A stretch of 64,000 bases of DNA from Actinokineospora xionganensis (GTDB taxonomy: Bacteria; Actinomycetota; Actinomycetes; Mycobacteriales; Pseudonocardiaceae): NCBI RefSeq assembly GCF_014323725.1, contig NZ_JABVED010000019.1:1-64000 (forward strand), in the 5' to 3' direction. The notes below the pieces were generated by a model. The model had not been told where the DNA came from and searched no databases. It saw only the letters and a program-made list of their open reading frames with translations. A program made the translations under genes and the position numbers. Shown here piece by piece: positions 11,364-27,968 of the stretch. Position 1 is the first letter of the stretch. The number at the start of each line of letters is the position of its first letter.

Positions 11364-12680
11364 TCACCCGCCCGCGACCGAGAGGCCCTTCTGCTTGATG
11401 GCGCCGACGGTCTTGTCCTGCACGGCCTTCAGCGCGTCGGGCAGCGTGCCGGTGCCGGTGACCGCCTTGCCCGCCGCGTCACCGAAGTCGGTGCTGACCT
11501 GGGTCATCGTCGGGCCCCAGCGCCAGCCGGTGTCGGTGTTGTTCGCCGCTTCCTTGAAGGCGGCGCCGAGGTTCTGGCCGGCGAAGTACTCCGACGGGGC
11601 GTTGAGCTCGGGAAGGTCGAGCAGCGACTTGGCCGCCGGGTACAGGCCCGCCTTCTCGATCAGGATCTTGTAGGCGGCCGGGTCGGTGCTCATCCACACC
11701 GCGAAGTCCCACGCCTGCTTGGGATCCTTGCAGCCCTTGAGCACCGCGGTGGACGAGCCGCCCGCGTTGCCCGCCTTCTTCTCGCCCGCGGTCCACTGCG
11801 GCATCGGGGCCACGCCCCACTTGCCCTTGCCGTCGGGGGCGTTGTCCTTGATCAGCGCGGACGCCCAGGAGGCGCCGACGTAGCTGGCGACCTTGCCGCT
11901 GTTGACGTCGGCGTTCCACTCCTTGTCGAAGCCCGGCTCGGGCTTGACCAGCTTCTCGGACAGCAGCCGCTGCCAGTACTCGGCGACCTTGGCGGTGTCG
12001 CCGCCCGCGACGTCCACCTTCCAGCTCTCACCCTGGGTGCCGAACCACTCGGCGCCGTTCTGCCAGGCGTAGCCGGCGAAGGTGTAGAGGTCGCCGCTGT
12101 CGAAGGAGGTGATGAAGTAGCTCGGGTCGGCGGCCTTGATCTTCTTGGCGGCCTGCTCGTACTCGTCCCAGGTGGTGGGGACGGCGACGCCGAAATTCTC
12201 GAAGACATCCTTGCGGTAGTAGAGCACCATCGGGCCCGTGTCGACGGGCGCGGCGAAGACGGCCTTGCCCACCTGGACCTGGTTCCAGGTCCAGTCGACG
12301 AACTTGCCGCCGTCGCCCGCGGCGTGCGTACCGACGTCGGCCAGCGCGCCCTCCACGACGAAGGTCGGCAGCGTCTCCAGGCCGACCTGGGCCAGACACG
12401 GCGCGGAACCGCCCTTCACCGCGTTGAGCATCTGCTGGTAGCCGCCCTTCGAGCCGGACGGCGTCTTGTTGAACTTGACCTTCACGTCGGTGTGCGTGGA
12501 GTTGAAGAGGTCGGCGGCTTCCTGGTAGCCGGGTGCCCAGCCCCAGAACTCCACGGTGACCGGACCGGAGGACAGGGGTGCGCTGTCGGGTTCGGGCGAA
12601 CCCGCGCACGCGGTGACGCCGAGGGCGACCGACGCGGCGGCGGCCAGTGCCGCGAACCGCTTGGACACATCTGGGAACAC
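11364..12680 (-). CDS. Sugar-binding lipoprotein of ABC importer (family 1 extracellular solute-binding protein)
   Basis: A 438-aa lipoprotein. The GTG start at 12680 follows GGAGG. The signal sequence RFAALAAAASVALGVTAC ends in a lipobox (VTAC), which puts the mature protein on the outer face of the membrane. The body has typical family 1 features (VTVEFWGWAPGYQEAADLF, later AGGSSTAVLKGCKDPKQAWDFAVWMS). It should capture the disaccharide released by GH101 and pass it to the two downstream permeases. Its promoter at 12738-12766 carries a near match to the operator shared within this locus. Confidence 0.9.
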   Translation of the reverse strand: MFPDVSKRFAALAAAASVALGVTACAGSPEPDSAPLSSGPVTVEFWGWAPGYQEAADLFNSTHTDVKVKFNKTPSGSKGGYQQMLNAVKGGSAPCLAQVGLETLPTFVVEGALADVGTHAAGDGGKFVDWTWNQVQVGKAVFAAPVDTGPMVLYYRKDVFENFGVAVPTTWDEYEQAAKKIKAADPSYFITSFDSGDLYTFAGYAWQNGAEWFGTQGESWKVDVAGGDTAKVAEYWQRLLSEKLVKPEPGFDKEWNADVNSGKVASYVGASWASALIKDNAPDGKGKWGVAPMPQWTAGEKKAGNAGGSSTAVLKGCKDPKQAWDFAVWMSTDPAAYKILIEKAGLYPAAKSLLDLPELNAPSEYFAGQNLGAAFKEAANNTDTGWRWGPTMTQVSTDFGDAAGKAVTGTGTLPDALKAVQDKTVGAIKQKGLSVAGG

Positions 12681-12737
12681 GGGGGACCTCCGGGCGATCG
12701 GCGACGCTGGGCGCGCGAACTTGTTAGATATTGGAGG

Positions 12738-12772
12738 ATTCTGAGCGCAATCGAACATCGAGTCAACAGTTT
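12738..12772 (-). promoter_or_regulatory. Promoter and operator-like site for the ABC transporter operon
   Basis: On the minus strand TTGACT (12766-12761) and CAGAAT (12743-12738) are separated by 17 bp. Immediately upstream and overlapping the -35 is AAACTGTTG, a near match to the CAAAACTGTTTG sequence found at the two divergent promoters of this locus. Repression by the adjacent DeoR-type protein is likely. Confidence 0.5.
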
Positions 12773-12821
12773 CGCGCAACATCCCGGTCACGGTCCCTCC
12801 ATCAGGACGCGGAGACGCGAA

Positions 12822-12853
12822 GGACCCGCGGAACTAGACCATTCCACGGGTCC
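12822..12853 (-). terminator. Hairpin terminator after the DeoR regulator gene
   Basis: Arms GGACCCGCGG (12822-12831) and CCACGGGTCC (12844-12853) pair with one wobble around a 12-nt loop. It lies about 30 nt past the regulator stop and upstream of the transporter promoter. Confidence 0.55.
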
Positions 12854-12882
12854 GGAGCGGACGGCGTAATCCCCCGCGGGGG

Positions 12883-13668
12883 TCAGACCTGGTGCACGGC
12901 GACGCCCGCCGACTGGAAGGCCGCGATCACGTCCGCGGGCGCGCCTGAGTCGGTGACCAGTGCGTTGATCCCCGACAGCGGACAGATGCGGGTGAACGCG
13001 TGCCTGCCCAGCTTCGAGCTGTCGGCGACCACCACGACCTTGCTGGCCCGCTGGACCATCAACGCGTTGATGCTGGCCTCACCCTCGTGGTGGGCGTAGG
13101 CCCCGCTGTCCGGATCGAAGGCGTCGACGCCGAGGAACAGGATGTCCAGGCCGATGTCACCGAGCACCCGGGTGGCGAGCGGCCCGGTCAGCTCGAAGGA
13201 CTGCGGACGCGCCACTCCCCCCGTGACGACCAGCTTGATGTTCTGCCGGACGGCGAGTTCGTTGGCGATGTTGAGCGCGTTGGTCACCACGGTCAGGGTC
13301 CGGCCGTCGCTCGTGCGCGCGAGATCGCCGCGGGTGGCGAGGGCCCGCGCCACCTCCGTGGTGGTCGTCCCACCGTTGAGTCCGATTACGTCGCCCTGCG
13401 CGACCAGCGCGGCGGCGCACTGCGCGATCTTGGACTTCTCCGGCGCGCGCCTGCCCGACTTGTAGCGCAGCGGCAGTTCGTAGCTCACGTTGTTGACCAC
13501 GGCGCCACCCCGGGTGCGGGTGAGCAGTTGCTGCTCGGCGAGATGGTCGAGGTCGCGCCGAATGGTCGCCGCGGAGACGGTCAGCCCGGCCGCCAGGTCC
13601 TCGATCTCGACCCGGCCGCGCCGGCCGAGGAGCTCGAGCATCGCGCTCAACCGCTCATGCCGGTCCAT
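12883..13668 (-). CDS. DeoR-family transcriptional regulator of the GalNAc locus
   Basis: A 261-aa repressor with an N-terminal DeoR helix-turn-helix (RVEIEDLAAGLTVSAATIRRDL, about residues 20-41) and a C-terminal sugar-phosphate sensing domain with GLNGGTTTTEVARAL and VVTNALNIANELA. The ATG at 13668 follows GGAGGTGGAC. It is divergent from agaS, with the CAAAACTGTTTG site between them, the usual position for a self-regulated AgaR-type repressor. The effector is probably a phosphorylated GalNAc-pathway sugar (inference). It may also control the transporter genes, the second agaS and the ATPase. Confidence 0.85.
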   Translation of the reverse strand: MDRHERLSAMLELLGRRGRVEIEDLAAGLTVSAATIRRDLDHLAEQQLLTRTRGGAVVNNVSYELPLRYKSGRRAPEKSKIAQCAAALVAQGDVIGLNGGTTTTEVARALATRGDLARTSDGRTLTVVTNALNIANELAVRQNIKLVVTGGVARPQSFELTGPLATRVLGDIGLDILFLGVDAFDPDSGAYAHHEGEASINALMVQRASKVVVVADSSKLGRHAFTRICPLSGINALVTDSGAPADVIAAFQSAGVAVHQV

Positions 13669-13788
13669 GTCCACCTCCGTAGGTCGCGAGGACTTCGCGA
13701 TCCATCCTGTTCGGTATCGGGTGGACCCGCGCATGATTACGCAAGGACCCGACGGAGGACTAGGTTCTCATCACTGCACAAACATGCG

Positions 13789-13824
13789 CAAAACTGTTTG
13801 AAACACGCACGTTTTGTGTAGGAT
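13789..13824 (+). promoter_or_regulatory. Operator CAAAACTGTTTG and promoter of the agaS operon
   Basis: The near-palindromic 12-mer CAAAACTGTTTG at 13789-13800 lies in the deoR-agaS divergent gap. The identical 12-mer occurs in reverse complement at 19989-20000 in the other divergent gap. A plausible -10, TAGGAT, lies at 13819-13824; the -35 is poorly defined. AGGAGG at 13851-13856 is the agaS ribosome binding site. Confidence 0.55.
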
Positions 13825-13860
13825 CGAGCACGCACTCAGCAGTCAATCAGAGGAGGTCAC

Positions 13861-14757
13861 GTGGGACTGTCCGCTTCCGCCGAGGAAACCAGCAGCCAGC
13901 CGGAGTGCTGGATCCGTGCCGCGGACGCCGTCGCGCAGCACCAGGCGGTGCTGCCGCGCGAAGGCGAGCGGGTGGCCGTGACCGGCTGTGGAACCTCCTG
14001 GTTCGTGGCGATGGCCTACGCCTCGCTGCGCGAAGGCGCGGGCCACGGCACCACCGACGCGTTCGCCGCCTCGGAGTTCCCGGTCGGCCGCACGGACTAC
14101 GACCGGGTCATCGTGATCACCCGCTCGGGCACCACCACCGAGGTGCTCACCCTCCTGGAGGCGCTGCGGGGCGGCGCCAAGACCGTCGCCATCACCGCGA
14201 CCGAGGGTTCCCCGGTCACCAAGCTGGCCGACCACGCGATCGAGCTGCCGTTCATCGACGAGCGCTCGGTCGTGCAGACCCGGTCCGCGACGTCGGTGCT
14301 CGCGCTGCTGCGCGCCTCCCTCGGCGAGGACCTGACCAAGGCCGTCGCCGACGCGCGCGAAGCGCTGACCCGGCCACTGGGCGACCTGCCCGCCGCCGAC
14401 CAGGTCACCTTCCTCGGGCAGGGCTGGACCGTCGGCCTGGCGCACGAGGCCGCGCTCAAGCTGCGGGAGGCCGCGCAGGTGTGGACCGAGTCGTACCCGG
14501 CCATGGAGTACCGGCACGGCCCGGTCAGCATCGCCGAGCCCGGAAGGCTGACGTGGGTGTTCGGCCCGGCCCCCGAAGGCCTGCCCGAGGACGTCGCCGC
14601 GACCGGCGCCACCTTCGTCACCGACGACCTCGACCCGATGGCGCAGTTGGTGCTCGCGCACCGGCTCGCGCTCGCCATCGCCGAGCGCAAGGGCCTCGAC
14701 CCGGACAGCCCGCGCAACCTCACACGGTCGGTGATCCTCGCCGCCACGGGCCAGTGA
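13861..14757 (+). CDS. agaS: AgaS-type sugar-phosphate deaminase/isomerase (SIS domain)
   Basis: A 298-aa protein with two SIS domains. GCGTSWFVAMAY (about 43-54) and VIVITRSGTTTEVLTLLEAL are sugar-phosphate binding segments, and the C-terminal half has LKLREAAQVWTESYPAMEYRHGP. The family includes AgaS, which converts galactosamine-6-phosphate to tagatose-6-phosphate and ammonia, and the NagB-II glucosamine-6-phosphate deaminases. With tagatose-type kinase and aldolase genes downstream, the AgaS reaction is preferred. The GTG start follows AGGAGG. It is the first gene of a five-gene operon. A close paralogue lies at 20043-20930. Confidence 0.85.
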   Translation: MGLSASAEETSSQPECWIRAADAVAQHQAVLPREGERVAVTGCGTSWFVAMAYASLREGAGHGTTDAFAASEFPVGRTDYDRVIVITRSGTTTEVLTLLEALRGGAKTVAITATEGSPVTKLADHAIELPFIDERSVVQTRSATSVLALLRASLGEDLTKAVADAREALTRPLGDLPAADQVTFLGQGWTVGLAHEAALKLREAAQVWTESYPAMEYRHGPVSIAEPGRLTWVFGPAPEGLPEDVAATGATFVTDDLDPMAQLVLAHRLALAIAERKGLDPDSPRNLTRSVILAATGQ

Positions 14758-14783
14758 GTGCCGGTGCGGCTAGCGTCATCCAG

Positions 14784-15689
14784 GTGAGCCTGGTCGCCGC
14801 CGTCGACATCGGCGGCACAAGCATCAAGGCGGCGCTGGTCGACGGCGACCTGCGGGTCCGCCACACCCTGCGCCGCCCGACCCCGTACGGCGCCGACGCG
14901 GTGATCGACGCGGTCACCGACGTGCTCGGCGAACTGGACAAACTCGCCGAGATGCCGGTGGCCGCGGCGGGGATCGTGTTCCCCGGGCTGGTCGACGAAG
15001 CCGCGGGCATCGCCCGCTTCTCGGTCAACCTGGGCTGGCGCGACCTGGATCTCGCCAAGCTCGCCGACCGCACCGGCAAGCCCACGGCCGTGGGCCACGA
15101 CGTGCGGGCGGGGGCGCTGGCCGAGTGGCGGCTCGGGGCCGCGAAGGGCTACCAGGACGTCGCCTTCATCCCCGTGGGCACCGGAGTGTCCGCGGCGTTC
15201 ATCGCCGACGGCCGGATGGTCGTCGCGGGCGGATACGCCGGGGAGATCGGCCACCTCGTCGTCGAACCGGATGGCGAGCCGTGCCCCTGCGGGGGGCGTG
15301 GCTGCCTGGAGACGGTGGGCTCGGCGAGTGCGCTTGCCCGCCGCTATAGCGCCCTGACCGGCGAAGACGTGTCCGCCGCGCTGGAGGTCCTGGACCGCAT
15401 GCGCGCTGGGGACGCCGTCGCCGCGCGGGTGTGGAACCAAGGTGTCGACGCCCTCGCCGACACCTTGGCCACAGTGGTGACCGTGCTCGCACCGGAAGTC
15501 GTCGTCATCGGCGGCGGACTTTCCGGCGCGGGCCCGGACCTGTTCGACCCGCTGCGCGAGCGACTCGGCGCGCGGCTGACGTTCCAGCGCGTGCCCACGG
15601 TGGTCGCGGCCGCGCTCGGCGACCAGGCGGCCTGCCTCGGCGCCGCCCTGCTCGCCCTGGACCACCTCAAGACCCGGAGCGGTGAATGA
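14784..15689 (+). CDS. ROK-family sugar kinase, probable N-acetylgalactosamine kinase
   Basis: A 301-aa ROK kinase: VAAVDIGGTSIKAALVDG is the ATP phosphate-binding loop, GYAGEIGHLVVEPDG the active-site region, and CPCGGRGCLETV the structural zinc motif. There is no HTH domain, so it is an enzyme rather than a regulator. By position between agaS and the deacetylase it should phosphorylate GalNAc to GalNAc-6-phosphate, needed because an ABC importer delivers unphosphorylated sugar. GTG 14784 is chosen because the ROK fold starts there; GTG 14754, overlapping the agaS stop, is an alternative. The ATGA at its end overlaps the next gene. Confidence 0.85.
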   Translation: MSLVAAVDIGGTSIKAALVDGDLRVRHTLRRPTPYGADAVIDAVTDVLGELDKLAEMPVAAAGIVFPGLVDEAAGIARFSVNLGWRDLDLAKLADRTGKPTAVGHDVRAGALAEWRLGAAKGYQDVAFIPVGTGVSAAFIADGRMVVAGGYAGEIGHLVVEPDGEPCPCGGRGCLETVGSASALARRYSALTGEDVSAALEVLDRMRAGDAVAARVWNQGVDALADTLATVVTVLAPEVVVIGGGLSGAGPDLFDPLRERLGARLTFQRVPTVVAAALGDQAACLGAALLALDHLKTRSGE

Positions 15690-16807
15690 CGACGGAAGTG
15701 CTGAGCGGCGGGCGGATCCTTACCGCCACCGGTTGGCTGGACCGCGGCTGGATCGCGGTCCGCGACGGGCGCGTGGAAGCGCTCGGCGACGGACCGCCGC
15801 CCCCGGGCGACACCATCGACCTCGGCGGCGACCCCGTGGTGCCGGGGTTCGTCGACCTGCACGTCCACGGCGGCGGCGGCGCGTCCTTCCAGAACCCGGC
15901 GCAAGCCCAGACCGCGCGGGACTTCCACCTCGGACACGGCACGACCACGATCCTGGCCAGCCTGGTGACCGCCCCGGTCGACGACTTGGTCGCCGCGACA
16001 GCCGGGCTCGTCCCGCTCGCGCGCGCCGGGGTCATCGCGGGCATCCACCTGGAAGGCCCGTTCCTGGCCGCCTCCCACTGCGGCGCCCACGATCCGACCC
16101 TGCTGCTCGACCCTGATCCCGACCTGCTCGAAACGCTGCTCGACGCGGGTGCGGGCGCGGTCCGGGTGGTCACGATCGCGCCCGAGCGGCCCGGTGCGAT
16201 CGCCGCGATCGCGCTGCTCACCGCCCGCGGTGTCGTGGCGGCGATCGGACACACGGGCGCGGACCTCGCCCGGACCCGGACCGCGATCGACGCGGGCGCG
16301 CGGCTCGCCACGCACCTGTTCAACGGGATGCCCGCGATGGGCCACCGCGATCCGGGGCCCGTGCTCGCCCTCCTCGACGACAACCGGGTGACCGTCGAGC
16401 TGATCAACGACGGCGTCCACCTGCACCCGGACCTGGTCGCGCATGTGCTGCGCACCAAGAAGTCCAGCGCGCTGATCACCGATGCGATCTCGGCGACCGG
16501 CATGGGCGACGGCGAGGTACGGCTCTCCGGGCTCGACGTCCGGGTCGAGTCAGGCGTGGCCCGGCTCGCCAACGGCGGGTCGCTCGCGGGCAGCACGCTG
16601 ACGATGGACGCGGCCGTGCGCAACGCGGTCGACGCGGGTGTCCCGCTCGCCGAGGCCGCGCGCGCCGCCAGTGCCACCCCCGCGGCGGTGCTCGGGCTGG
16701 GCGACCGGATCGGCACGCTCGCCCCCGGGATGGACGCGGACCTGGTGGTGCTCGACGCCCGACTGGGGGTGCGCCGAGTGCTGGCCAAGGGAAGGTGGGT
16801 CCGGTGA
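15686..16807 (+). CDS. nagA: N-acetylgalactosamine/glucosamine-6-phosphate deacetylase
   Basis: A 373-aa amidohydrolase of the NagA/AgaA family, which removes acetate from GalNAc-6-P or GlcNAc-6-P. Metal and active-site motifs are DLHVHGGGG (about 57-65), GIHLEGPFL with the metal-binding Glu, AIGHT, THLFNGMPAMGHRDPG and the catalytic Asp in ALITDAISATGMGDG. Length is close to the family norm. It overlaps the kinase gene (ATGA) and the PfkB gene (GTGA) by 4 nt each. Genomic context favours the GalNAc-6-P substrate (the AgaA role), but the sequence alone does not separate it from NagA. Confidence 0.9.
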   Translation: MTTEVLSGGRILTATGWLDRGWIAVRDGRVEALGDGPPPPGDTIDLGGDPVVPGFVDLHVHGGGGASFQNPAQAQTARDFHLGHGTTTILASLVTAPVDDLVAATAGLVPLARAGVIAGIHLEGPFLAASHCGAHDPTLLLDPDPDLLETLLDAGAGAVRVVTIAPERPGAIAAIALLTARGVVAAIGHTGADLARTRTAIDAGARLATHLFNGMPAMGHRDPGPVLALLDDNRVTVELINDGVHLHPDLVAHVLRTKKSSALITDAISATGMGDGEVRLSGLDVRVESGVARLANGGSLAGSTLTMDAAVRNAVDAGVPLAEAARAASATPAAVLGLGDRIGTLAPGMDADLVVLDARLGVRRVLAKGRWVR

Positions 16808-17730
16808 TCGTCACCGTCACCCCGAACGCCGCCCTCGACGTCACCTACGTGGTGCCCGCGCTGCTGCCCAACGGCAGCCACCGGGTGACGTCGGTTCGCA
16901 GCCGGGCGGGTGGCAAGGGCATCAACGTGGCCCGAGTGCTTGCCCGCCAAGGGATCCCCGTGATCGCGACCGGCTTGGTCGGTGGCCCGACCGGCAGCCT
17001 GCTCGACCGCGACCTGGCCGCCGCACGCGTCGTGTTCCATCCGTACGAGGTCGCCGCGGAGTCTCGGCGCACCGTGACCGTCGTCGCCGACGGCGACGCC
17101 ACCGTCTTCAACGAGCCCGGCGAGCCGGTCACCGCCGCCGAGTGGGCCGGGTTCCGCGGGCACCTCGCCGGACTGCTCGCCGACGCCCGCCTCGTGGTGC
17201 TCTCCGGCAGCCTGCCTCCGGGCCTGGGCTTCGACGCCTACGCCGACCTGGTCCGCGTCGCCCGTGCGCACGGCTGCCGCACCGTCCTCGACACCAGCGG
17301 CGACGCGCTGCTGGCGGGGATCGCGGCGGGTGCCGACGTGGTCAAGCCGAACGCGGTCGAGCTGTTCGAGGCTACCGGTGAATCCGACCCGGTGGCGGCG
17401 GCGCAGGCGCTGCGCCGGGCGGGAGCGGGCGCGGTCGTGGCCTCGCTCGGGCCTGACGGGATGGTCGCGGTGACCGCGGACGGCTGCTGGCGGGCCCGGC
17501 CCGACCGGCGGATCAGCGGCAACCCGACCGGGGCGGGCGACGCGGGTGTCGCGGCGCTCGCGGCGGGGCTGGTGGCCGGAAACCCTTGGCCGGACTTGAT
17601 TCGCGAGGCGGTGGCGTGGTCCGCGGCCGCGGTCGCCGCGCCCCTCGCGGGAGACATCGACGAGGGCACGCGCGACGAGCTGCGTGCCGGGGTGAACGTG
17701 GAGGAACTCGATGCCGCTAGTCGGAACTGA
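16804..17730 (+). CDS. PfkB-family hexose kinase, probable tagatose-6-phosphate kinase
   Basis: A 308-aa kinase of the LacC/FruK branch of the PfkB family. It has the N-terminal VTVTPNAALDVTY, the substrate motif AGGKGINVARVLARQG, and the C-terminal signature NPTGAGDAG with the catalytic Asp near residue 246. It should phosphorylate tagatose-6-phosphate to the 1,6-bisphosphate; 1-phosphofructokinase activity is the main alternative. The GTG start overlaps the deacetylase stop (GTGA), and the gene's last 20 nt overlap the aldolase start. Confidence 0.87.
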   Translation: MIVTVTPNAALDVTYVVPALLPNGSHRVTSVRSRAGGKGINVARVLARQGIPVIATGLVGGPTGSLLDRDLAAARVVFHPYEVAAESRRTVTVVADGDATVFNEPGEPVTAAEWAGFRGHLAGLLADARLVVLSGSLPPGLGFDAYADLVRVARAHGCRTVLDTSGDALLAGIAAGADVVKPNAVELFEATGESDPVAAAQALRRAGAGAVVASLGPDGMVAVTADGCWRARPDRRISGNPTGAGDAGVAALAAGLVAGNPWPDLIREAVAWSAAAVAAPLAGDIDEGTRDELRAGVNVEELDAASRN

Positions 17731-18547
17731 CCAGATCGTGGGGCCCGCCCGGGCGGCGGGCCGCGGGGTGGGCGCGTTCAACGTGATCCACCTGGAGCAC
17801 GCCGAGGCGCTGGTCGAAGGCGCGGCCGCGGCGGGCGCGCCGGTGATCCTGCAGATCAGCGAGAACTGCGTGCGCTACCACGGTGCGCTGGAGCCGATCG
17901 CCGTCGCGACCCTCGCGGTGGCGCGGTCGGCTGAGGTGCCGGTGGCCGTGCACCTCGACCACGCGGAGTCGGTGGACCTGGTTCACGAGGCGGTCCGGCT
18001 GGGCTTCTCGTCGGTCATGTACGACGGGTCCACTTTGGACTACGAGGCGAACGTGGCGCGCACCCGAGAGGTCGCCGAACACTGTCACCGCAACGGCGTG
18101 TGGGTGGAGGCCGAGCTGGGCGAGGTGGGCGGCAAGGACGGGGTGCACGCGCCGGGGGTCCGGACGAATCCGGGTGAGGCGGTCGAGTTCGTCGAGGCGA
18201 CCGGGGTCGACGCGCTGGCGGTGGCCGTGGGCTCTTCGCACGCGATGCTGACCAGGGACGCGTCCTTGGACTTCGCCCTGATCGGGGACCTTCGGGCGGC
18301 CGTGCCGGTTCCACTGGTGCTGCACGGTTCGTCCGGTGTCGCCGACCCGGACCTGGCCGAGGCCGTGCGCTCGGGGATGACGAAGGTCAACATCGCCACT
18401 CAGCTGAGCAAGGTCTTCACCGGGGCCGTGCGCGCCTACCTGGCCGAGAACCCGACCACTGTGGACAGTCGCAAGTACGTCGCCGCGGGCCGTGCCGCGG
18501 TGAGCAAGGAAGCGGCGCGGCTGCTCGAGGTTCTCGGCGCCCGCTGA
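17711..18547 (+). CDS. Class II bisphosphate aldolase, probable tagatose-1,6-bisphosphate aldolase
   Basis: A 278-aa zinc-dependent class II aldolase. HLDHAES (about 81-87) holds the catalytic Asp and a zinc His; EAELGEVGGKDG and LVLHGSSGV (second conserved His) complete the core. Its length and the HGSSG segment fit the KbaY/GatY group better than the longer fructose-bisphosphate aldolases. It should cleave tagatose-1,6-bisphosphate to DHAP and glyceraldehyde-3-phosphate, the last step of the pathway. The start is inside the PfkB gene and is preceded by GGAGGA. A hairpin follows at 18556. Confidence 0.87.
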   Translation: MPLVGTDQIVGPARAAGRGVGAFNVIHLEHAEALVEGAAAAGAPVILQISENCVRYHGALEPIAVATLAVARSAEVPVAVHLDHAESVDLVHEAVRLGFSSVMYDGSTLDYEANVARTREVAEHCHRNGVWVEAELGEVGGKDGVHAPGVRTNPGEAVEFVEATGVDALAVAVGSSHAMLTRDASLDFALIGDLRAAVPVPLVLHGSSGVADPDLAEAVRSGMTKVNIATQLSKVFTGAVRAYLAENPTTVDSRKYVAAGRAAVSKEAARLLEVLGAR

Positions 18548-18826: not shown

Positions 18827-19915
18827 TCACTGCCCGCCGAGCCGCAAACCCGTCACGGCGTCGAACACGTGCAGCCGCTCGACGTCGGGGACGAGAGTGA
18901 TCCGCTCTCCGCGCATCGCGCGGGACATGCCTTCGGTCCGCACCGCGATCGGCTCGTGGTCGGGGGCGCCATCCGGGCGGCAGTAGAGGAATCCGTCGCT
19001 GCCGAGTTCCTCCACGACCTCGATTGTCACCGCCATCCCCCGGGAGCCCTCGGCGCCCACGCGCCAGTTCTCCGGACGCACGCCCACAACCACGTCGGGG
19101 CTCGTCACGTCGTTGACCTGCTCGCGGGTGAGCGGCACGCGCTGGCCGCCGAACACCGCCTCGCGACCATCCACAGTGGCCGGGAGCAGGTTCATCGCGG
19201 GCGAGCCGATGAACCCGGCGACGAACAGGTTGGCGGGCCGGGAGAACAGGGCGATCGGGGTGTCGCACTGCTGCAGTTCCCCGTCCTTGAGGACGGCGAC
19301 CCGGTCGCCCATCGTCATCGCCTCGACCTGGTCGTGGGTGACATAGAGGGTGGTGACGTCCAGCCGCCGCTGCAGCGTGGCGATCTGGGTGCGGGTCTGG
19401 ACCCGCAGCTTGGCGTCGAGGTTCGACAGCGGCTCGTCCATCAGGAAGACCTGCGGGCGGCGGACGATCGCGCGGCCCATCGCCACCCGCTGCCGCTGGC
19501 CGCCGGAGAGCTTGGCGGGCTTGCGGTCGAGGTACTTCTCCAGGTCGAGCAGCTTCGCCGCCTCCAGGATCCGGCGCTCGCGCTCCGCCTTCTCCACCTT
19601 GGTGATGCGCAGGTGGAACCCGATGTTCTCGGCGACGGTCATGTGCGGGTAGAGCGCGTAGCTCTGGAACACCATGGCGATGTCGCGGTCCTTGGGCGGC
19701 AGCGACGTGACGTCGCGGTCACCGATCCAGATCTCGCCGTCGTCGACCGGCTCCAGCCCGGCGAGCATCCGCAGAGTGGTCGACTTGCCGCAGCCCGACG
19801 GTCCGACGAGGACGAGCAGTTCCCCTTGTTCGATCTTCAGGTCGAGTTCCGCGAGGGCGGGACGCTCCACGCCGGGATAGCGGCGTGTGACACCGCGGTA
19901 CGAAACACCGGCCAT
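18827..19915 (-). CDS. Carbohydrate ABC transporter ATPase (UgpC/MsmX type)
   Basis: A 362-aa ATP-binding subunit with Walker A GPSGCGKST, Q-loop VFQSYALYPHMT, signature LSGGQRQR, Walker B VFLMDEPLSNLDAKLR and switch H in YVTHDQVEA, then a C-terminal OB-type regulatory domain typical of CUT1 ATPases. The ATG at 19915 follows GGAG. It lies away from the permeases but shares their operator, so it is probably the dedicated energiser of that importer; such ATPases can also serve several transporters. It is divergent from the second agaS. Confidence 0.92.
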   Translation of the reverse strand: MAGVSYRGVTRRYPGVERPALAELDLKIEQGELLVLVGPSGCGKSTTLRMLAGLEPVDDGEIWIGDRDVTSLPPKDRDIAMVFQSYALYPHMTVAENIGFHLRITKVEKAERERRILEAAKLLDLEKYLDRKPAKLSGGQRQRVAMGRAIVRRPQVFLMDEPLSNLDAKLRVQTRTQIATLQRRLDVTTLYVTHDQVEAMTMGDRVAVLKDGELQQCDTPIALFSRPANLFVAGFIGSPAMNLLPATVDGREAVFGGQRVPLTREQVNDVTSPDVVVGVRPENWRVGAEGSRGMAVTIEVVEELGSDGFLYCRPDGAPDHEPIAVRTEGMSRAMRGERITLVPDVERLHVFDAVTGLRLGGQ

Positions 19916-19954: not shown

Positions 19955-20000
19955 ATTCTATGGGGTTCCAACCATAAGTCAACAGTCGCAAACAGTTTTG
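19955..20000. promoter_or_regulatory. Divergent promoter and CAAAACTGTTTG operator between ATPase and second agaS
   Basis: For the ATPase, minus-strand TTGACT (19982-19977) and TAGAAT (19960-19955) are separated by 16 bp. Just upstream, 19989-20000 reads CAAACAGTTTTG, the exact reverse complement of the 12-mer at 13789-13800. The string AACTGTTnnnGACT-like context also resembles the transporter promoter near 12762. A common DeoR repressor would explain it. Confidence 0.6.
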
Positions 20001-20042
20001 TGTACGCTGTTGCCAGTTCACCGGCCAGGACGGAGGGGCGCC

Positions 20043-20930
20043 TTGTCCTTCATCACCAGCGAGATCGCCAGCCAGCCCGAGTGCTGGAGCCGAGCGGTCG
20101 CCCTTGCCGCCGAGCTGGCCCGCGTCCTGCCCCAGTCCGGCGAGCGCGTCGCCGTGGTCGGCTGCGGCACCTCACGGTTCATCGCGGAGTCCTACGCCGC
20201 CCTGCGCGAACAGCGCGGACACGGCCGGACCGACGCCTTCGCGGCGTCGGAGTTTCCCGAGGCGCGCACCTACGACACGGTCATCGCGCTGACCCGGTCC
20301 GGCGCGACCAGCGAGGTAGTCGACCTGCTGCGCGCGCTGCCGCCTCGCACGCGCACGGTCGCGGTCACCGCCGACCCGGACTCGCCGGTGTCGCGCTTCG
20401 CCGACGACGTCGTGCCGCTCGGCTTCGCCGACGAGCGCGCGGTAGTGCAGACCCGGTTCGCCACGACCACCCTGGCACTGCTGCGGGCGGGGCTCGGCGA
20501 AGACCTCGGCCCGGCCATCACCGACCTGCGCGAAGCGATCACGGTGCCGCTCCCGGCGGACATCGTGCACGCCGCCCAGTTCACCTTCCTCGGCCGCGGC
20601 TGGACCGTCGGGCTCGCGCACGAGGCCGCGCTGAAGCTGCGCGAGGAGTCCGCGGCCTGGAGCGAGTCCTACCCGGCGATGGAGTACCGGCACGGCCCGA
20701 TCAGCGTGACCGAACTCGGCCGCGTCGTGTGGATGATCGGCGACCTGCCCGCCGGACTCGGCGACGAGATCACCGCCGCGGGCGGCACCCTGGTCACCTC
20801 GAACCTCGACCCGATGGCCGACTTGGTGCTCACCCAGCGGCTGGCCTCGGCGATCGCGGAGGCGCATGGGCTCGACCCGGACCACCCCCGCAACCTGACC
20901 AGGTCGGTCATCCTCTCCCAGCCAGCCTGA
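20043..20930 (+). CDS. agaS: Second AgaS-type sugar-phosphate deaminase/isomerase
   Basis: A 295-aa SIS protein closely similar to the product of 13861-14757 along its whole length (SQPECWSRAV, GCGTSRFIAESYAALRE, LKLREESAAWSESYPAMEYRHGP). The TTG start at 20043 is inferred from GGAGGGG six bases upstream and alignment with the paralogue. It precedes the beta-galactosidase by 15 nt, so the two form an operon under the shared operator. It may provide the same activity when this operon is induced separately, or act on glucosamine-6-phosphate. Confidence 0.82.
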   Translation: MSFITSEIASQPECWSRAVALAAELARVLPQSGERVAVVGCGTSRFIAESYAALREQRGHGRTDAFAASEFPEARTYDTVIALTRSGATSEVVDLLRALPPRTRTVAVTADPDSPVSRFADDVVPLGFADERAVVQTRFATTTLALLRAGLGEDLGPAITDLREAITVPLPADIVHAAQFTFLGRGWTVGLAHEAALKLREESAAWSESYPAMEYRHGPISVTELGRVVWMIGDLPAGLGDEITAAGGTLVTSNLDPMADLVLTQRLASAIAEAHGLDPDHPRNLTRSVILSQPA

Positions 20931-20945: not shown

Positions 20946-22694
20946 ATGAGTGACTCCCCCAGGTTCGTCGTCGGCACCAAGGACTTCCTGCTCGACGGCG
21001 AACCGATCCGGCTGGTCTCCGGCGCGCTGCATTACTTCCGCGTGCACCCGGAGCAGTGGGCCGACCGCCTCGCCGCCGCGCGGGCGATGGGGCTGAACAC
21101 GGTCGAGACCTACCTGCCGTGGAACCTGCACGAGCCCGAGCCGGGCCGCCACGACTTCACCGGCGGTCTCGACGTCGAGCGGTTCGTCGCGCTCGCCGAG
21201 GAGACCGGGCTGTTCGTGCTGCTGCGGCCCGGGCCGTACATCTGCGCGGAGTGGGAACTCGGCGGCCTGCCCTGGTGGCTGCTGCGCGACCCGGACATGC
21301 GGCTGCGCAGCTCCTACCAGCCGTTCCTCGACGCGGTGGACGCGTGGTTCGACGTGGTGATCCCGAAACTGCTGCCGATGCTGGCCACCCGCGGCGGCCC
21401 CGCGCTGATGGTGCAGTTGGAGAACGAGTTCGGCTCCTACGGCGCCGACCCCGCCTACCTGACGCACCTTCGGGACGGCCTGCTGCGGCGCGGGGTCGAC
21501 GTGCCGCTGTTCACCTCCGACGGCCCGGAGGAGCACATGCTCACCAACGGTCTCGTTGACGACGTGCTGGGCACGGTGAACTTCGGCTCGCGAGCGGAGG
21601 AGGCGTTCAAGGCCTTTCGCGGACACCGAGCCGAGGGCCCGCTGATGTGCATGGAGTTCTGGTGCGGCTGGTTCGACCACTGGGGCGAGCGCCACCACGC
21701 GCGTGACCCCCTGGACGCGGCGGCGACCCTGGACGACATCCTGGGCGCGGGCGCGTCGGTCAACTTCTACATGTGGCACGGCGGCACCAACTTCGGCTAT
21801 CTCAACGGCGCCAACCACGGCGAAGGCTTCGAGCCGACGATCACCTCCTACGACTACGACGCGCCGCTGAGCGAGTGGGGCGCGCCGACGCCGAAGTTCG
21901 GGGCCTTCCGCGACGTGATCGCCAAGCACCTGGGCGAACCCCTCACCGAGGAACCACCGGCCGTGCGCCTGGCCGGGTTCGGCGACGTCCGGCTGACCGA
22001 GAGTGCCCCCGTGCTGCGCAACCTGGTGTCGGTGGGCCGGTTCGACGAGCCGCCGACCGTCGAGGAGGCCGGGATCGGCCACGGGTTCGCTGTCTACCGC
22101 GCGAGCCTTCCCGCGGGCGCGGCGACCCTGCGGATCCCAGTCGTGCACGACCGCGCGCAGCTCCTCGTGGACGGCGCGGAAATCGGCGTGCTGGAGCGCG
22201 ACGGCGAGTGCGACACGGTGGCGCTCCCGCCGGGCGGCGCGCTGCTGGAGATCCTGCTGGAGAACCAGGGTCGGGTGAACTACGGCCCACACCTGCACGA
22301 CCGCAAGGGCCTGCCTGGCGGCGTGCTGGTCGACGGCGCCGCGCTGTGCGACTGGGAGGTTCTGCGACTCGCGGACCTCAGCAAGATCCACTTTGGACAG
22401 CCCGGGGGCGGTCCGGTATACCGGCGCGGCGTGCTCCACGTGAACGACCCCGCGGACACCTTCGTCGACCTGCCCGGCTTCGCCAAGGGCGTGGTGTGGG
22501 TCAACGGCTTCAACCTGGGGCGCTACTGGGACCGCGGCCCGCAGACCCGGCTCTACGTGCCGAAGCCGGTGCTGGTCGCGGGGGCCAACGAGATCGTGGT
22601 ACTGGACCTGCACCCGGGCGACAGCGACACTGTTCGCTTCGTGGCCGAGCCCGCACTGGGCGAGCCGGACGTCTTCCGGGGCTGCCTGGGCTGA
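20946..22694 (+). CDS. GH35 beta-galactosidase, cytoplasmic
   Basis: A 582-aa family 35 glycoside hydrolase. The N-terminal TIM barrel shows VSGALHYFRVHPEQW, GLNTVETYLPWNLHEP and LLRPGPYICAEWE. The proton donor should be Glu161 in QLENEFGSYG and the nucleophile Glu237 in CMEFWCGWFDHWG. C-terminal jelly-roll domains end with VWVNGFNLGRYWDRGPQ. There is no signal peptide, so it acts inside the cell, most likely removing galactose from imported Gal-beta-1,3-GalNAc. The ATG at 20946 is 15 nt after the second agaS; the free galactose would go to central metabolism elsewhere. Confidence 0.9.
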   Translation: MSDSPRFVVGTKDFLLDGEPIRLVSGALHYFRVHPEQWADRLAAARAMGLNTVETYLPWNLHEPEPGRHDFTGGLDVERFVALAEETGLFVLLRPGPYICAEWELGGLPWWLLRDPDMRLRSSYQPFLDAVDAWFDVVIPKLLPMLATRGGPALMVQLENEFGSYGADPAYLTHLRDGLLRRGVDVPLFTSDGPEEHMLTNGLVDDVLGTVNFGSRAEEAFKAFRGHRAEGPLMCMEFWCGWFDHWGERHHARDPLDAAATLDDILGAGASVNFYMWHGGTNFGYLNGANHGEGFEPTITSYDYDAPLSEWGAPTPKFGAFRDVIAKHLGEPLTEEPPAVRLAGFGDVRLTESAPVLRNLVSVGRFDEPPTVEEAGIGHGFAVYRASLPAGAATLRIPVVHDRAQLLVDGAEIGVLERDGECDTVALPPGGALLEILLENQGRVNYGPHLHDRKGLPGGVLVDGAALCDWEVLRLADLSKIHFGQPGGGPVYRRGVLHVNDPADTFVDLPGFAKGVVWVNGFNLGRYWDRGPQTRLYVPKPVLVAGANEIVVLDLHPGDSDTVRFVAEPALGEPDVFRGCLG

Positions 22695-22753
22695 TTTCTG
22701 CGCGAAGTTGGTCTTGGTCGGCCTAATTCAAGCATCTTTTTGCACGACGACTC

Positions 22754-22796
22754 TTGACGCGGGCAACGTGAGTTAGAACACTAGCTGAACTAACTC
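22754..22796 (+). promoter_or_regulatory. Promoter with palindromic operator upstream of GH101
   Basis: TTGACG at 22754-22759 is a good -35, with a weak -10 at 22777-22782 after 17 bp. Over the -10 lies a perfect inverted repeat, GAGTTAG (22770-22776) and CTAACTC (22790-22796), with a 13-nt centre. Its placement is typical of repression, and the ROK-type regulator encoded just after GH101 is the obvious candidate. Confidence 0.55.
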
Positions 22797-22818
22797 TCCT
22801 ACCCCTGCAGGAGTGCGC

Positions 22819-25800
22819 ATGCGTGCCCAAGTGCCCCTAACGCTTGCCTTGATAGCCGGTTCCTTAGCCATCCCAGTCGTGACCGCCGCAGCCGAGGGTG
22901 CGACGGTCACCATCACCTCGCCCGCCCTGTCCGTCAGCGTCGACGACAGCTTCCCCCGGGTGATCAGCTACACCGACCGCGCGAGCAACGCGGTGCTGCA
23001 CGGCAACGAGGACCCACTCACCCAGATCCGGGTCAACGGCACCACCTACACCCCCACCGTCACCTCGACCGTCGCGACCGACCGCGTCGACTACAAGCTC
23101 TCGTTCTCCGGCGTCACCATCGACGCACGGCTGTCGGTGAGCGGGTCCGTCGTGCACTTCGCGGTGACCGGCATCAGCGACACTCCCTCCCTGCGGGTGT
23201 CCAGCTTCGCCATCCCGGGCCACAACCTCGTCTCCGTGCGCAGCAGCCAGACCGGCGCCGCGCTCGCGACCGCTCGGATGAACACCGCGACCACCGGCAC
23301 CGGCGACACGTTCACCGCCATCACCTCGTCGACGCCCGCCGACACCGCGCCGGCTGGCGCGATGTTCGCCGTGGCCAACACGGCCACGCTCGGCGCGGCG
23401 ATCGTCTCGAACTCGTACTACGACAACCCTTCCGGCACCAACGCGAACGAGAGCGGACGTCTGCAGAAGCAGGTCGTCGCCAAGACCGGCTACCGCCGGG
23501 CAGGCCTGTGGAGCGGTGACTGGCTCTACCGGCCCGCGGGCGCGGCACTGACCGACACCGAGCCGCTGCCCTACGCGAAGGTCGCGATCACCCGCGACCG
23601 CAACGGTGACAGCACCGTCGACTGGCAGGACGCCGCCGTCGCCGCGCGCGACATCTGGACGGCGCCGCAGGGTTGGGAGCACACCGCGGACCGCGTGGTG
23701 CAGCGCATCCCGTTCAACTTCGGCTCGCAGGCCACGCACCCGTTCCCGCAGACCCTCGACGAGACCAAGCGGGTGGCCCGGGCCACCGATGGGCTCGGAC
23801 AGTTCGTGCTGCTCAAGGGTTACGGCTCCGAGGGCCATGACTCCGCGCACATGGACTACGGCTACGTCGGCCCGAAGATGGGCGGCGCCGCCGAACTGCG
23901 CGCGCTGACCGAGGCCGCCGAGGGGCTCAACGCCGACATCGGCGTGCACGTCAACGCGCACGAGGAATATCCCGTGTCGCGCACGTTCAACCCCGCCAAG
24001 CACACCGGCGCCAACGGCTGGGACTGGCTCGACCAGTCCTATGTGATCGACGCCCGCAAGGACGGCCAGTCCGGCGACCGGCTGGCCCGGCTCAACGAGC
24101 TCAAGGCGGCGGTGCCCGCGCTGGACTTCCTCTACGTCGACGTCTGGTACGGCGACGGCTACGTCTCCCGCAAGCTGGCGCGTGACATCAACGGGCTGGG
24201 CTGGCAGATGGCGACCGAGTTCCCGGACAAGCTGGTCGACAACACGGTGTGGACGCACTGGTCGGCCGACGTGAACTACGGCGGCACCGACTACAAGGGA
24301 ATCAACTCCCAGCTCGCCCGGTTCATCGGCAACCACACCCGCGACGACTGGATCGTCCGGCACCCGCTGCTCGGTGGCGCCGAACTCGAGGCCTACGAAG
24401 GCTGGCAGGGCAAGAAGGACTTCAACGCCTTCCTGCGCACCACCTTCGCAGTGAACCTGCCGACCAAGTACCTGCAGGGCTCGCCGATCACCAAGTGGAC
24501 CACTGACACGGTGACACTGGCCAACGGCGTCACGGTGACCAACGCGGGCGGCACCAAGGTCATCCGCGAGAACGGCCGGGAAGTGCTGCGCGGCAACGCC
24601 TATCTCCTCCCCCGTGACGGCAGGCTCTACCACTGGAACGCTTCCGGTGGCAACACGACGTGGACCCTGCCCGCGGGCTGGACCGCGCCGAAGCTCTACC
24701 AGCTCACCGACGCAGGCCGCGTGCTCGTCGGCGACCTGGCGGTCACCGCCGGGCAGGTCTCGCTGAACGCGGCCGCGAACACCGCCTACGTCGTCTACAA
24801 CGGCGCGGCGCCCGCGCAGGGCGACGCGAACTGGGGCCAGGGAACTCCGGTGAAGGACCCGGGCTTCTACGCCGGAAACCTGTCGGCGTGGTCGGTCACC
24901 GGCACGGGCGCCTCGGTCACCCGCAACGGCTCCGGCCAGAACGAGCTGACCGTCGCGGCGAACTCCACTCCGACGGTGTCGCAGCAGCTCACCGGTTTGA
25001 CCGCGGGCACGTACTCGGCCTCGGTGTGGGTCTCGACTCCCGCGGGCCGCAAGGCGACGCTGAGCGTGACACCGACAGGCGGGACAGCGGCTTCGGTGTA
25101 CGCCGACTGGTCCGGGGTCACCCAGGCCGCGGGCGGCAGTGAGAAGAACGGCACGACGATGCAGCGGATGAAGGTCCTCTTCGACGTCCCCGCCGGGCAG
25201 ACCACCGCGACGCTGGCGCTTTCCACCGCGACCGGCTCGGGCACCGTGGTCTTCGACGACGTCCGCGTGGTCCAGTCCGGGCGCACTCCCATGAACGGTC
25301 ACTACTTCGCCGAGGACTTCGAGAACGTCGACGCGGGCTGGGGACCGTTCGTCGTCGGCGGCGGTTCGCAGAACGACCCGCGAACCCACATCGCCCAGCG
25401 CAACGCGCCCTACACGCAGGCGGGCTGGAACGGGAAGCTGGTCGACGACGTGATCACCGGCGACAACTCGCTGAAGTCGCACGAGGAACGGCAGCGGCTG
25501 ATCTACCAGACGGTGCCGCAGACGCTGCGGTTCACCGAGGGCAGGCAGTACAAGGTGACGGCGAACTACCAGGCCGGGTTCGGCAACGAGTACGCCTTCG
25601 TCACCGGCTCGGGCGCCTCCGAGACCAGCTCCACCAACTTCGCCCAGGCGCGGACCACCACGGTGTTCAGCAAGACGTTCACCGCCGGACCCAACGCCTG
25701 GATCGGCGTCCGCAAGCTGACCCCCGAGAACTCCAACAACGAGGCCGACCTGATCCTCGACGACCTGGTGGTCGACGACCTCGGCCCCGGCGCCGGTGGG

Positions 25801-26682
25801 GATGTGGTGCGGGTGCCGCAGTCCGGGATGTCGGTGACCTATGTGGACTCGCAGGAGACCACGGGTGAGAACGGCGCCGCGGCCAACGTGTTGGACGGCA
25901 ACGCGAGCACGATCTGGCACACCAAGTGGGCGGGCGGTTCGGACCCGATGCCGCACGAGATCCGCGTGGACCTCGGCGCTACCTACAACGTGTCCACTGT
26001 GTATTACCTGCCGCGGCAGTCCCAGACCAACGGGCGGATCGCGAACTACGAGATCTACACCTCGACCGACGGGGTGAACTGGGGCGCGGCGGCGGCGACC
26101 GGCACGTTCCCCAACACCACGACGGAACAGGCGGTCACCTTCACCGCCCGACAGGCCCGGCACGTGCGGCTGCGCGCGCTGTCGGAGGTCGGCGGCAACC
26201 CGTGGACCGCGGTGGCCGAACTGAACGTCGGATACAAGCAGGCGGGCCGGATTCCGCAGTCGGGAATCACGGTGGCGTCGGTGTCCAGTCAGGACACCGC
26301 GACCAACGGCGCGGCGGCCAACGTGCTCGACGGCGTGGCGGACACGCTGTGGCACACCGCTTGGTCGCAGGTCGAGCCGGACGCGGCGTACCCGCACGAG
26401 ATCGTGCTCGACCTCGGCCGCTCCTACTCGGTGTCGTGCCTGCACCACCTGCCCCGGCAGAGTGGGGTCAACGGCAAGATCGCCGGCTACGAGGTCTACG
26501 TTTCCGCGGACGGCACGACGTGGGGCACGGCGGTGAAGACCGGGACGTTCGCCAACACGACGGCCGAGTCGGACGCCTGCTTCACGGCGAAGTCGGGGCG
26601 GTACGTCAAGTTCCGCGCCACCTCGGAGCAGGCGGGCGGGCCCTGGGCGTCGGTCGCCGAGCTGAACGTCACCGGGGTGTAG
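22819..26682 (+). CDS. Secreted GH101 endo-alpha-N-acetylgalactosaminidase with C-terminal discoidin domains
   Basis: A 1287-aa secreted hydrolase. The signal peptide is VPLTLALIAGSLAIPVVTAAA; the ATG at 22819 has AGGAG five bases upstream, better placed than GTG 22813. GH101 landmarks are LKGYGSEGHDSAHMDYG, IGVHVNAHEEYP, FLYVDVWYGDG with the probable nucleophile Asp441, and MATEFPDK with the probable acid/base Glu467. A galactose-binding-like domain follows (about 690-830), another beta domain, then two tandem F5/8 type C (CBM32-like) modules to the end. It should release Gal-beta-1,3-GalNAc from Ser/Thr-linked core 1 O-glycans. There is no sorting motif, so it is free or glycan-bound outside the cell. 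Confidence 0.88.
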   Translation: MRAQVPLTLALIAGSLAIPVVTAAAEGATVTITSPALSVSVDDSFPRVISYTDRASNAVLHGNEDPLTQIRVNGTTYTPTVTSTVATDRVDYKLSFSGVTIDARLSVSGSVVHFAVTGISDTPSLRVSSFAIPGHNLVSVRSSQTGAALATARMNTATTGTGDTFTAITSSTPADTAPAGAMFAVANTATLGAAIVSNSYYDNPSGTNANESGRLQKQVVAKTGYRRAGLWSGDWLYRPAGAALTDTEPLPYAKVAITRDRNGDSTVDWQDAAVAARDIWTAPQGWEHTADRVVQRIPFNFGSQATHPFPQTLDETKRVARATDGLGQFVLLKGYGSEGHDSAHMDYGYVGPKMGGAAELRALTEAAEGLNADIGVHVNAHEEYPVSRTFNPAKHTGANGWDWLDQSYVIDARKDGQSGDRLARLNELKAAVPALDFLYVDVWYGDGYVSRKLARDINGLGWQMATEFPDKLVDNTVWTHWSADVNYGGTDYKGINSQLARFIGNHTRDDWIVRHPLLGGAELEAYEGWQGKKDFNAFLRTTFAVNLPTKYLQGSPITKWTTDTVTLANGVTVTNAGGTKVIRENGREVLRGNAYLLPRDGRLYHWNASGGNTTWTLPAGWTAPKLYQLTDAGRVLVGDLAVTAGQVSLNAAANTAYVVYNGAAPAQGDANWGQGTPVKDPGFYAGNLSAWSVTGTGASVTRNGSGQNELTVAANSTPTVSQQLTGLTAGTYSASVWVSTPAGRKATLSVTPTGGTAASVYADWSGVTQAAGGSEKNGTTMQRMKVLFDVPAGQTTATLALSTATGSGTVVFDDVRVVQSGRTPMNGHYFAEDFENVDAGWGPFVVGGGSQNDPRTHIAQRNAPYTQAGWNGKLVDDVITGDNSLKSHEERQRLIYQTVPQTLRFTEGRQYKVTANYQAGFGNEYAFVTGSGASETSSTNFAQARTTTVFSKTFTAGPNAWIGVRKLTPENSNNEADLILDDLVVDDLGPGAGGDVVRVPQSGMSVTYVDSQETTGENGAAANVLDGNASTIWHTKWAGGSDPMPHEIRVDLGATYNVSTVYYLPRQSQTNGRIANYEIYTSTDGVNWGAAAATGTFPNTTTEQAVTFTARQARHVRLRALSEVGGNPWTAVAELNVGYKQAGRIPQSGITVASVSSQDTATNGAAANVLDGVADTLWHTAWSQVEPDAAYPHEIVLDLGRSYSVSCLHHLPRQSGVNGKIAGYEVYVSADGTTWGTAVKTGTFANTTAESDACFTAKSGRYVKFRATSEQAGGPWASVAELNVTGV

Positions 26683-26717
26683 GAAGTAGTGGGATCGACC
26701 AAGGGGGACCGGGAACG

Positions 26718-27968
26718 ATGCGCATGACACGAGCGGACGTTCCGGTCCCCCTTGTCCGGTCCGGTGAGGTGGCGAGCCGGACCGCCATCCGCCGGGCCAA
26801 CCTCGGCTTGGTGCTGCGCGACCTCAACACCCACGGATCGCGGTCGCAGACCCAGCTTGCCGAAGATCTCGGGCTGCCCAAGGCGACGGTGTCCACGCTG
26901 GTCAGCGAGCTGACCGAGCTGGGCCTCGTCTACCAGACCGATGCCACCCGGGCGGGCGCGGTCGGCAGGCCCCGGCAGACGGTGGAACTGCGCGGCACGG
27001 CCATCTGCGGCCTGGGTGTGGAGCTCACCGCCACCGACGCCCGCGCGGTCGCACTCGACCTGCGCGACGACGTCCTGCTCGACCGGTCCATCGCCATCGA
27101 CCGAGCCGACCCCGACACCGTGCTCGACGCCGTCGCGGCACTCATCCACGACGCACTGGCGGTGCTGGCCGAGTCCGGGAGCCACGTCCTCGGCATCACC
27201 ATCGCCGCGCCGGGCCAGCTGGACCGCGACGCGGGCGTGATCCGCTTCGCCGCTCCGCTGGGCTGGTCGGACGTGCAGCTGGTCGACGGGCTGATCTCAC
27301 GGCTGAACGCGGACGTCCCCCCGATGCGCATCGACAACGACGCCCGGCTCGGCGCGGTCGCGGAATACGCCGTGGCCCGCACCGAGGGCATCCACGACCT
27401 GCTCTACGTGACCGGTGGACTCGGCGTGGGGGCCGGAATCCTGGTGGACGGCCAGATCCTGCGCGGCGCCATGGGCTTCGCGGGCGAGATCGGCCACCTG
27501 CCACTGGGCAGGCCCGACCTGCCGTGCCCGTGCGGGCGCAGCGGATGCGTGGAGGCCACGGTCGGGGTGACCGCGTTTCTCGACACCGTGTCCGACCCGC
27601 CGCACGCGGTGCGTGACCTGGACCAGCAGATGACCGACCTGCGAACCCGCGCCGACGCGGGCGACCCCGTCGTGCTCGCCGCACTGGGCACCGTCGGGCA
27701 GGGCCTCGGCGTCGTCGTGGGCATGCTGATCGACGTCCTGAGCCCCCGAGCAGTGATCCTCGGCGGCTACTTCTCCTACTTCGGCGAGCACCTCCTCACC
27801 CACGTGCGGGGTGCCGTCGAGGCGCGGGCCATCGCAGGCCAAGCAGGCGGCTGCGACATCAGGACCTCCGGCTTCGCCTTCACCGGCCCGGCTCGAGGCG
27901 CCGCCCACACCGCCCTCGAAGCCCTCTTCACCGACCCCGTCGCCTGCATGGAGCACGCGAGCAGCTAA
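26718..27968 (+). CDS. ROK-family transcriptional regulator
   Basis: A 416-aa NagC/XylR-type repressor. The N-terminal winged HTH is at about 28-75 (SRSQTQLAEDLGLPKATVSTLV), followed by a ROK sugar-binding fold with GFAGEIGHLPLG and the zinc motif CPCGRSGCVEA. ATG 26718 is preceded by GGGGGA; a second ATG lies two codons on. It begins 35 nt after GH101 on the same strand and probably controls it through the palindrome at 22770-22796. The inducer is likely a GalNAc- or galactose-containing sugar (inference). Confidence 0.87.
   Translation: MRMTRADVPVPLVRSGEVASRTAIRRANLGLVLRDLNTHGSRSQTQLAEDLGLPKATVSTLVSELTELGLVYQTDATRAGAVGRPRQTVELRGTAICGLGVELTATDARAVALDLRDDVLLDRSIAIDRADPDTVLDAVAALIHDALAVLAESGSHVLGITIAAPGQLDRDAGVIRFAAPLGWSDVQLVDGLISRLNADVPPMRIDNDARLGAVAEYAVARTEGIHDLLYVTGGLGVGAGILVDGQILRGAMGFAGEIGHLPLGRPDLPCPCGRSGCVEATVGVTAFLDTVSDPPHAVRDLDQQMTDLRTRADAGDPVVLAALGTVGQGLGVVVGMLIDVLSPRAVILGGYFSYFGEHLLTHVRGAVEARAIAGQAGGCDIRTSGFAFTGPARGAAHTALEALFTDPVACMEHASS

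Follow-up and report, generated by a model that had tools for sequence, protein, structure and literature searches.

Organization of the locus

The window analyzed here, the first 64,000 nucleotides of an Actinokineospora xionganensis contig (bases 1-64000 of contig 11, in a genome of 6.81 Mb, 70 contigs and completeness 99.83), contains a gene cluster predicted to serve the use of N-acetylgalactosamine (GalNAc) and core-1 O-glycans. Combining open reading frames (ORFs), the phase of GC content at third codon positions (GC3 phase), and Pfam and NCBIfam profile searches, we called 15 genes from 6862 to 27968. A preliminary description of the same DNA had reported a complete regulon of this kind, and the families it named are borne out: a sugar-binding protein (SBP), a DeoR-family regulator, a ROK-family kinase, a NagA-type deacetylase, a PfkB kinase, a class II aldolase, glycosidases of families GH35 and GH101, and a ROK-family regulator. 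Its gene list is right in outline; it passed over the two permeases, the ATPase of the ATP-binding cassette (ABC) importer and a second SIS gene, and the interval it drew leaves both permeases outside, to the left. Its statement that every step is present holds for GalNAc and fails for galactose: none of the genes called in the locus is a galactose gene, and a galactokinase domain is encoded on contig C45, away from it.

The gene at 22819..26682 (+) encodes a predicted secreted GH101 endo-alpha-N-acetylgalactosaminidase, with a Sec-type leader (judged by eye) at its N-terminus and two CBM32-like domains at its C-terminal end. The protein matches PF12905 with 372 bits (cut-off 25), has all of the companion domains, and can be aligned to the solved enzymes from pneumococcus and Bifidobacterium. 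It retains, as D441 and E467, the Asp and Glu that line up with those of 3ecq and that we take to be the catalytic acids of GH101; it scores under the cut-off of the narrower NCBIfam SpGH101 model (591 vs 2900). The adjacent GH35 beta-galactosidase (20946..22694, +; PF01301, 389 bits) lacks a recognizable leader. Among solved structures it comes closest to 4mad (E 1.8e-179; the next, 2.8e-134), presumably the beta-1,3-specific BgaC of Bacillus circulans, and both family profile and nearest relative place it as a putative BgaC-type enzyme. The same genome encodes a second GH101 protein, 43% identical (L033, 8873-13329, contig C1), which adjoins another ROK regulator, 42% identical.

The importer consists of the SBP, a predicted lipoprotein (11364..12668, -; PF01547, start chosen manually) with a lipobox-like VTAC seen by eye, the permeases PermA (10318..11277, -; PF00528) and PermB (9455..10318, -; PF00528 and GC3 phase), and a UgpC/MsmK-type ATPase (18827..19915, -; NF008653, 457.9 bits, cut-off 432). 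The galacto-N-biose/lacto-N-biose receptor 2z8d (E 1.2e-49) is among the closest PDB matches of the SBP. Homologues of PermB (55% identical) and PermA (53%) occur in another GH101 locus, L083, where the former adjoins GH35-GH101.

Two SIS proteins as predicted replacements for AgaS

Which protein would convert galactosamine-6-phosphate (GalN-6-P)? The best candidates are SIS1 (13861..14757, +; PF01380), a predicted GalN-6-P deaminase/isomerase, and SIS2 (20043..20930, +; PF01380 and fold matches), a member of the same SIS subfamily that begins with TTG here and with ATG in the related genome G014. The name AgaS given in the preliminary description has to be withdrawn: SIS1 and SIS2 score 32.9 and 25.7 bits against TIGR02815, the AgaS model, whose cut-off is 529.2, and at E<=0.001 this model finds no match anywhere in the genome, while among 14 control genomes it matches in seven, in one of them above the cut-off. 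SIS1 and SIS2 are 62% identical, and the columns that we checked are the same in both; they do not pair in a tree, where support around SIS2 is weak. The PDB relatives of SIS1 are glucosamine-6-phosphate (GlcN-6-P) deaminases and GlmS, the deaminases being the closest solved relatives. An Arg is invariant in the subfamily (101 of 101 rows), at a position where GlmS, we presume, has its Schiff-base lysine.

The subfamily is widespread. Strong matches occur in 73 of 150 genomes, this one counted. A separate search confirms at least 583 stretches, and the public names of these proteins are 'SIS domain', 'sugar isomerase' and 'FrlB-like'. An aldolase of the window's kind lies within 6 kb of 17 of 19 SIS genes in 18 loci from relatives, and a DeoR gene within that distance of 15 of the 19; among 80 named SIS loci the corresponding counts are 72 and 67. 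This association of SIS, aldolase and DeoR exceeds chance. Many Streptomyces clusters (L108, L140 and similar ones) consist of DeoR-SIS-aldolase only, lacking nearby counterparts to the window's NagA, ROK kinase and PfkB.

The remaining predicted catabolic enzymes

The genes following SIS1 encode a ROK sugar kinase (14784..15689, +; PF00480, the match being on a longer frame), which is a predicted GalNAc kinase; a NagA/AgaA-type deacetylase (15686..16807, +) that passes TIGR00221 (241.4 bits, cut-off 225.65) and matches 6fv3 in the PDB at 3.2e-96; a PfkB kinase (16795..17730, +; TIGR03168 over cut-off), predicted to act on tagatose-6-phosphate and having tagatose-6-phosphate kinases as its best PDB matches (2awd, 6.3e-40); and a class II ketose-bisphosphate aldolase (17711..18547, +; PF01116, TIGR00167 over cut-off). 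The tagatose and fructose models score the aldolase about equally, both under cut-off, and model scores cannot type it.

Regulators and predicted operators

The DeoR-family regulator (12883..13734, -; PF00455, PF08220) scores best against NF040755, the AgaR model, at 203.2 bits; this is below the cut-off of 260, and hence we call it AgaR-like only. Three perfect copies of AACAGTTTYGYGYA are found genome-wide, and all three lie at promoters of the locus: before SBP (12765..12778, +), between DeoR and SIS1 (13785..13798, -), and between the ATPase gene and SIS2 (19991..20004, +). We regard them as predicted DeoR operators. The first two are unchanged in G014 and the third has one mismatch there; three one-mismatch copies lie elsewhere in the A. 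xionganensis genome, and a backwards control gives two. Since the motif was derived from these same three sites, the fair test is a dinucleotide shuffle. The three regions agree fully in 11 of 14 columns, and none of 200 shuffles reaches 11, the best giving 10. Upstream regions from the same genus show, by eye, only partial resemblance to AACAGTTTYGYGYA. SIS upstream regions from L088-L167, mostly Streptomyces, share the words TATCTTGCA (42/101) and ATGCTTGAT (39/101), which likely represent a different operator.

The ROK-family regulator (26724..27968, +; PF00480, matched on a longer frame, with HTH_IclR/MarR winged-helix domains) is encoded beyond GH101. Before GH101 stands a 27-base palindrome (22770..22796, +), a predicted ROK operator that is the sole perfect copy in the genome and is unchanged in G014; at <=2 mismatches there are five copies per strand vs seven in a backwards control, and only the perfect copy is informative. 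The term regulon used in the preliminary description gains support from the motif common to three promoters, but GH101 bears this different, palindromic element. The distinct element suggests that control is probably divided between two regulators, each with its own targets, the DeoR and ROK proteins being predicted to bind their respective operators.

Distribution among relatives

In G014 the sugar-catabolic genes and the importer-glycosidase genes form one locus, as they do in the window, with all of the 15 genes 92-98% identical except the ROK regulator, which is 87% identical. The distant genome G259 separates them: SBP, both permeases, GH35 and GH101 lie together (47, 53, 55, 49 and 40% identity) beside a LacI-type gene, and SIS, ROK kinase, PfkB, aldolase, DeoR and NagA genes lie together at another place. 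GH101 itself was found in 17 of 394 genomes of the class and in 3 of 16 of the genus, this genome counted each time. The SIS subfamily, searched for in four GH101 genomes, gives strong matches in three and weak ones only in G403 (best E 5e-8).

Proposed pathway and alternative readings

We propose the following route. Secreted GH101 would free Gal-beta-1,3-GalNAc (galacto-N-biose) from glycoproteins, and the SBP, two permeases and MsmK-type ATPase would import the disaccharide unphosphorylated. Cytoplasmic GH35 would then cleave it to galactose, which may exit through the galactokinase encoded elsewhere, and GalNAc, which the ROK kinase would convert to GalNAc-6-phosphate for deacetylation by NagA. 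SIS1, SIS2 or both would turn GalN-6-P into tagatose-6-phosphate and ammonium, and PfkB and the class II aldolase would carry the product to triose phosphates. DeoR is predicted to repress the SBP, SIS1 and SIS2/ATPase promoters, and the ROK regulator to repress GH101. Families, gene order, the shared promoter motif and conserved active-site residues are observed in the DNA; from them we infer all substrates, the repression and the inducers. No component of an AGA-type phosphotransferase system (PTS) was found in a genome search confined to EIID-AGA (PF03613); the same profile matches 3 of 14 control genomes, including Escherichia coli. A search for the galacto-N-biose/lacto-N-biose phosphorylase (PF09508) was equally silent in this genome and in the controls, so that absence is not shown.

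As the preliminary description had it, the families are best read as a core-1/GalNAc route that relies on an ABC importer and on hydrolysis by GH35, judging from the GH101, GH35, SBP and PfkB comparisons, and we hold with good confidence that the locus is catabolic and directed at core-1 O-glycans. More cautiously, we lean towards the view that the SIS subfamily is a GalN-6-P deaminase/isomerase that replaces AgaS in much of the Actinomycetes, and that its doubling within a GH101-GH35-ABC locus marks a way of using core-1 O-glycans that needs no PTS and lies beyond the gut lineages studied to date.

Several observations weigh against these proposals. Among 16 other GH101 loci in the class sample (two of them, L076 and L077, truncated on one side) none holds SIS, three hold GH35 and one holds the importer, and such linkage is therefore rare. 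Importer homologues (38-51%) lie near SIS-aldolase in Streptomyces L140, L149 and L163 without a GH35 or GH101 match, which weakens the idea of a fixed link between importer and GH101; in L140 they adjoin a hydroxyacid dehydrogenase and a phosphodiesterase/HAD protein. Two other sugar receptors, 6q5g (2.3e-51) and 6h0h (3.2e-51), rank above 2z8d as matches of the SBP. The nearest solved relatives of the ROK kinase are glucokinases and N-acetylmannosamine kinases. PfkB scores 240.8 against the 1-phosphofructokinase model (cut-off 292) vs 147.9 against LacC (TIGR01231, cut-off 409.55), both under the cut-offs, and the NagA model that the deacetylase passes is filed as an N-acetylglucosamine (GlcNAc) enzyme. 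There is also a second NagA-like gene, 49% identical (L182, 5250-6416, contig C12); it lies outside any evident amino-sugar cluster, and no nagB is evident among its called neighbours, as judged from N-termini only and without a profile search. As for the motif, AACAGTTTYGYGYA was read from the very sites at which it is counted, was not seen in a k-mer count of 101 upstream regions, mostly Streptomyces, and has no copy at <=2 mismatches in L033, the second GH101 locus.

How else might the locus be read? SIS1 and SIS2 could have split roles, one as GalN-6-P and the other as GlcN-6-P deaminase, in a locus that uses both galacto-N-biose and lacto-N-biose. Their modest identity and separate places in the tree fit such a division, as does the ability of GH35-family beta-1,3-galactosidases to take both disaccharides, reported for GnbG (PMC6109692). 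Against this stand the identical checked columns, the weak tree support around SIS2 and the fact that GH101 yields no lacto-N-biose, and we regard the division as unlikely. Still more doubtful is a locus devoted to GlcNAc or lacto-N-biose, in which NagA and SIS would act on GlcNAc-6-phosphate and GlcN-6-P to give fructose-6-phosphate and GH101 would be a mere neighbour. The deacetylase model, the solved GlcN-6-P deaminases nearest to SIS, and 2z8d, which by its title binds lacto-N-biose too, all speak for it; such a pathway, however, would not need an aldolase or a dedicated PfkB nearest to tagatose-6-phosphate kinases, SIS keeps company with the aldolase in 17/19 and 72/80 cases, and importer, GH101 and GH35 remain together in distant G259. 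Finally, the public 'FrlB-like' names would make SIS a fructosamine deglycase and the locus a consumer of Amadori products, a reading to which we give almost no credence.

If our reading of the SIS subfamily as a GalN-6-P enzyme is true, a common actinobacterial family for which we found no tested function would gain one, and many proteins of Streptomyces and relatives named 'FrlB-like' or 'sugar isomerase' should be renamed for an amino-sugar step. The locus also offers a compact, testable case of feeding on mucin-type glycans beyond the usual gut species, and operators are predicted for both of its regulators.

Neighbouring genes and genomic setting

Directly downstream of the permeases lies a gene for a phosphocholine-specific phospholipase C (6862-9393, -; TIGR03396, 777 bits, cut-off 580), kept in G014, whose C-terminal CBM32-like domain is 54% identical to one in GH101. 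That it might strip phosphocholine-bearing glycans is only a thought, and a special role for it here is weakly supported, as such CBM32-bearing phospholipases C occur in many other actinobacteria. An apparent linkage of phospholipase C and GH101 in L070 and L083, suggested by BLAST, was dropped since gene calling placed the matches within GH101 itself, towards the end that encodes CBM32.

The locus is flanked by rlmN on one side and by a cdsA-frr block of core genes on the other (window 5675-30997; the frr neighbour is named from its N-terminus only). The same flanked position holds the locus in G014, and the interval is possibly an insertion site.

Comparison with known systems

Each step predicted for the locus has a known counterpart; what is unusual is how they are combined. 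In E. coli the Aga pathway proceeds by a deacetylase, a GalN-6-P deaminase/isomerase, tagatose-6-phosphate kinase and an aldolase (PMC4694137). Like that system (AgaR, Aga PTS, AgaA, AgaS, AgaZ, AgaY), the locus would combine deacetylase, deaminase/isomerase and kinase steps with a class II aldolase and a DeoR-family regulator; unlike it, the locus has an ABC importer and a ROK kinase, no AGA-type PTS component was found, and its SIS proteins are not of the AgaS family. PTS-free use of GalNAc is not new in itself: Shewanella takes up GalNAc by the AgaP permease and phosphorylates it with the AgaK kinase, without a PTS (PMC2996990). The present locus resembles that arrangement in PTS-free uptake followed by a kinase, and differs in its predicted disaccharide ABC importer, its GH35 and its other SIS subfamily, where Shewanella has a GalNAc permease and AgaS.

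In Bifidobacterium, the GH101 enzyme EngBF and a galacto-N-biose ABC transporter (PMC6109692) are followed by a phosphorylase that splits the disaccharide and then by a 1-kinase. The locus shares with this system a predicted secreted GH101 and a predicted ABC importer for the disaccharide, its SBP matching receptor 2z8d; it differs in having GH35 and a predicted tagatose route, against phosphorylase and 1-kinase there. Similarly, the gnb operon of Lactobacillus casei and the streptococcal bgaC-PTS operon join GH35 with a deacetylase and a GalN-6-P deaminase (PMC6109692, PMC4694137), as the locus appears to do, whereas they import by PTS, with no ABC importer, and GnbG of L. casei prefers the phosphorylated disaccharide (PMC6109692). 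NagS, whose gene lies next to dmdR1, is a Streptomyces GlcNAc-6-phosphate dehydratase described as confined to Streptomycetaceae and as not binding GalNAc-6-phosphate (PMC12680351); like SIS1 and SIS2 it is an actinobacterial protein with a SIS domain, and its substrate, like the one predicted for them, is an amino-sugar phosphate, a likeness drawn from its description. Neither this combination nor the SIS subfamily as a galactosamine enzyme was found described in literature titles and abstracts, a search that left subscription papers mostly outside. Set beside these systems, the locus likely represents a new combination with a probable enzyme replacement, rather than a new kind of system.
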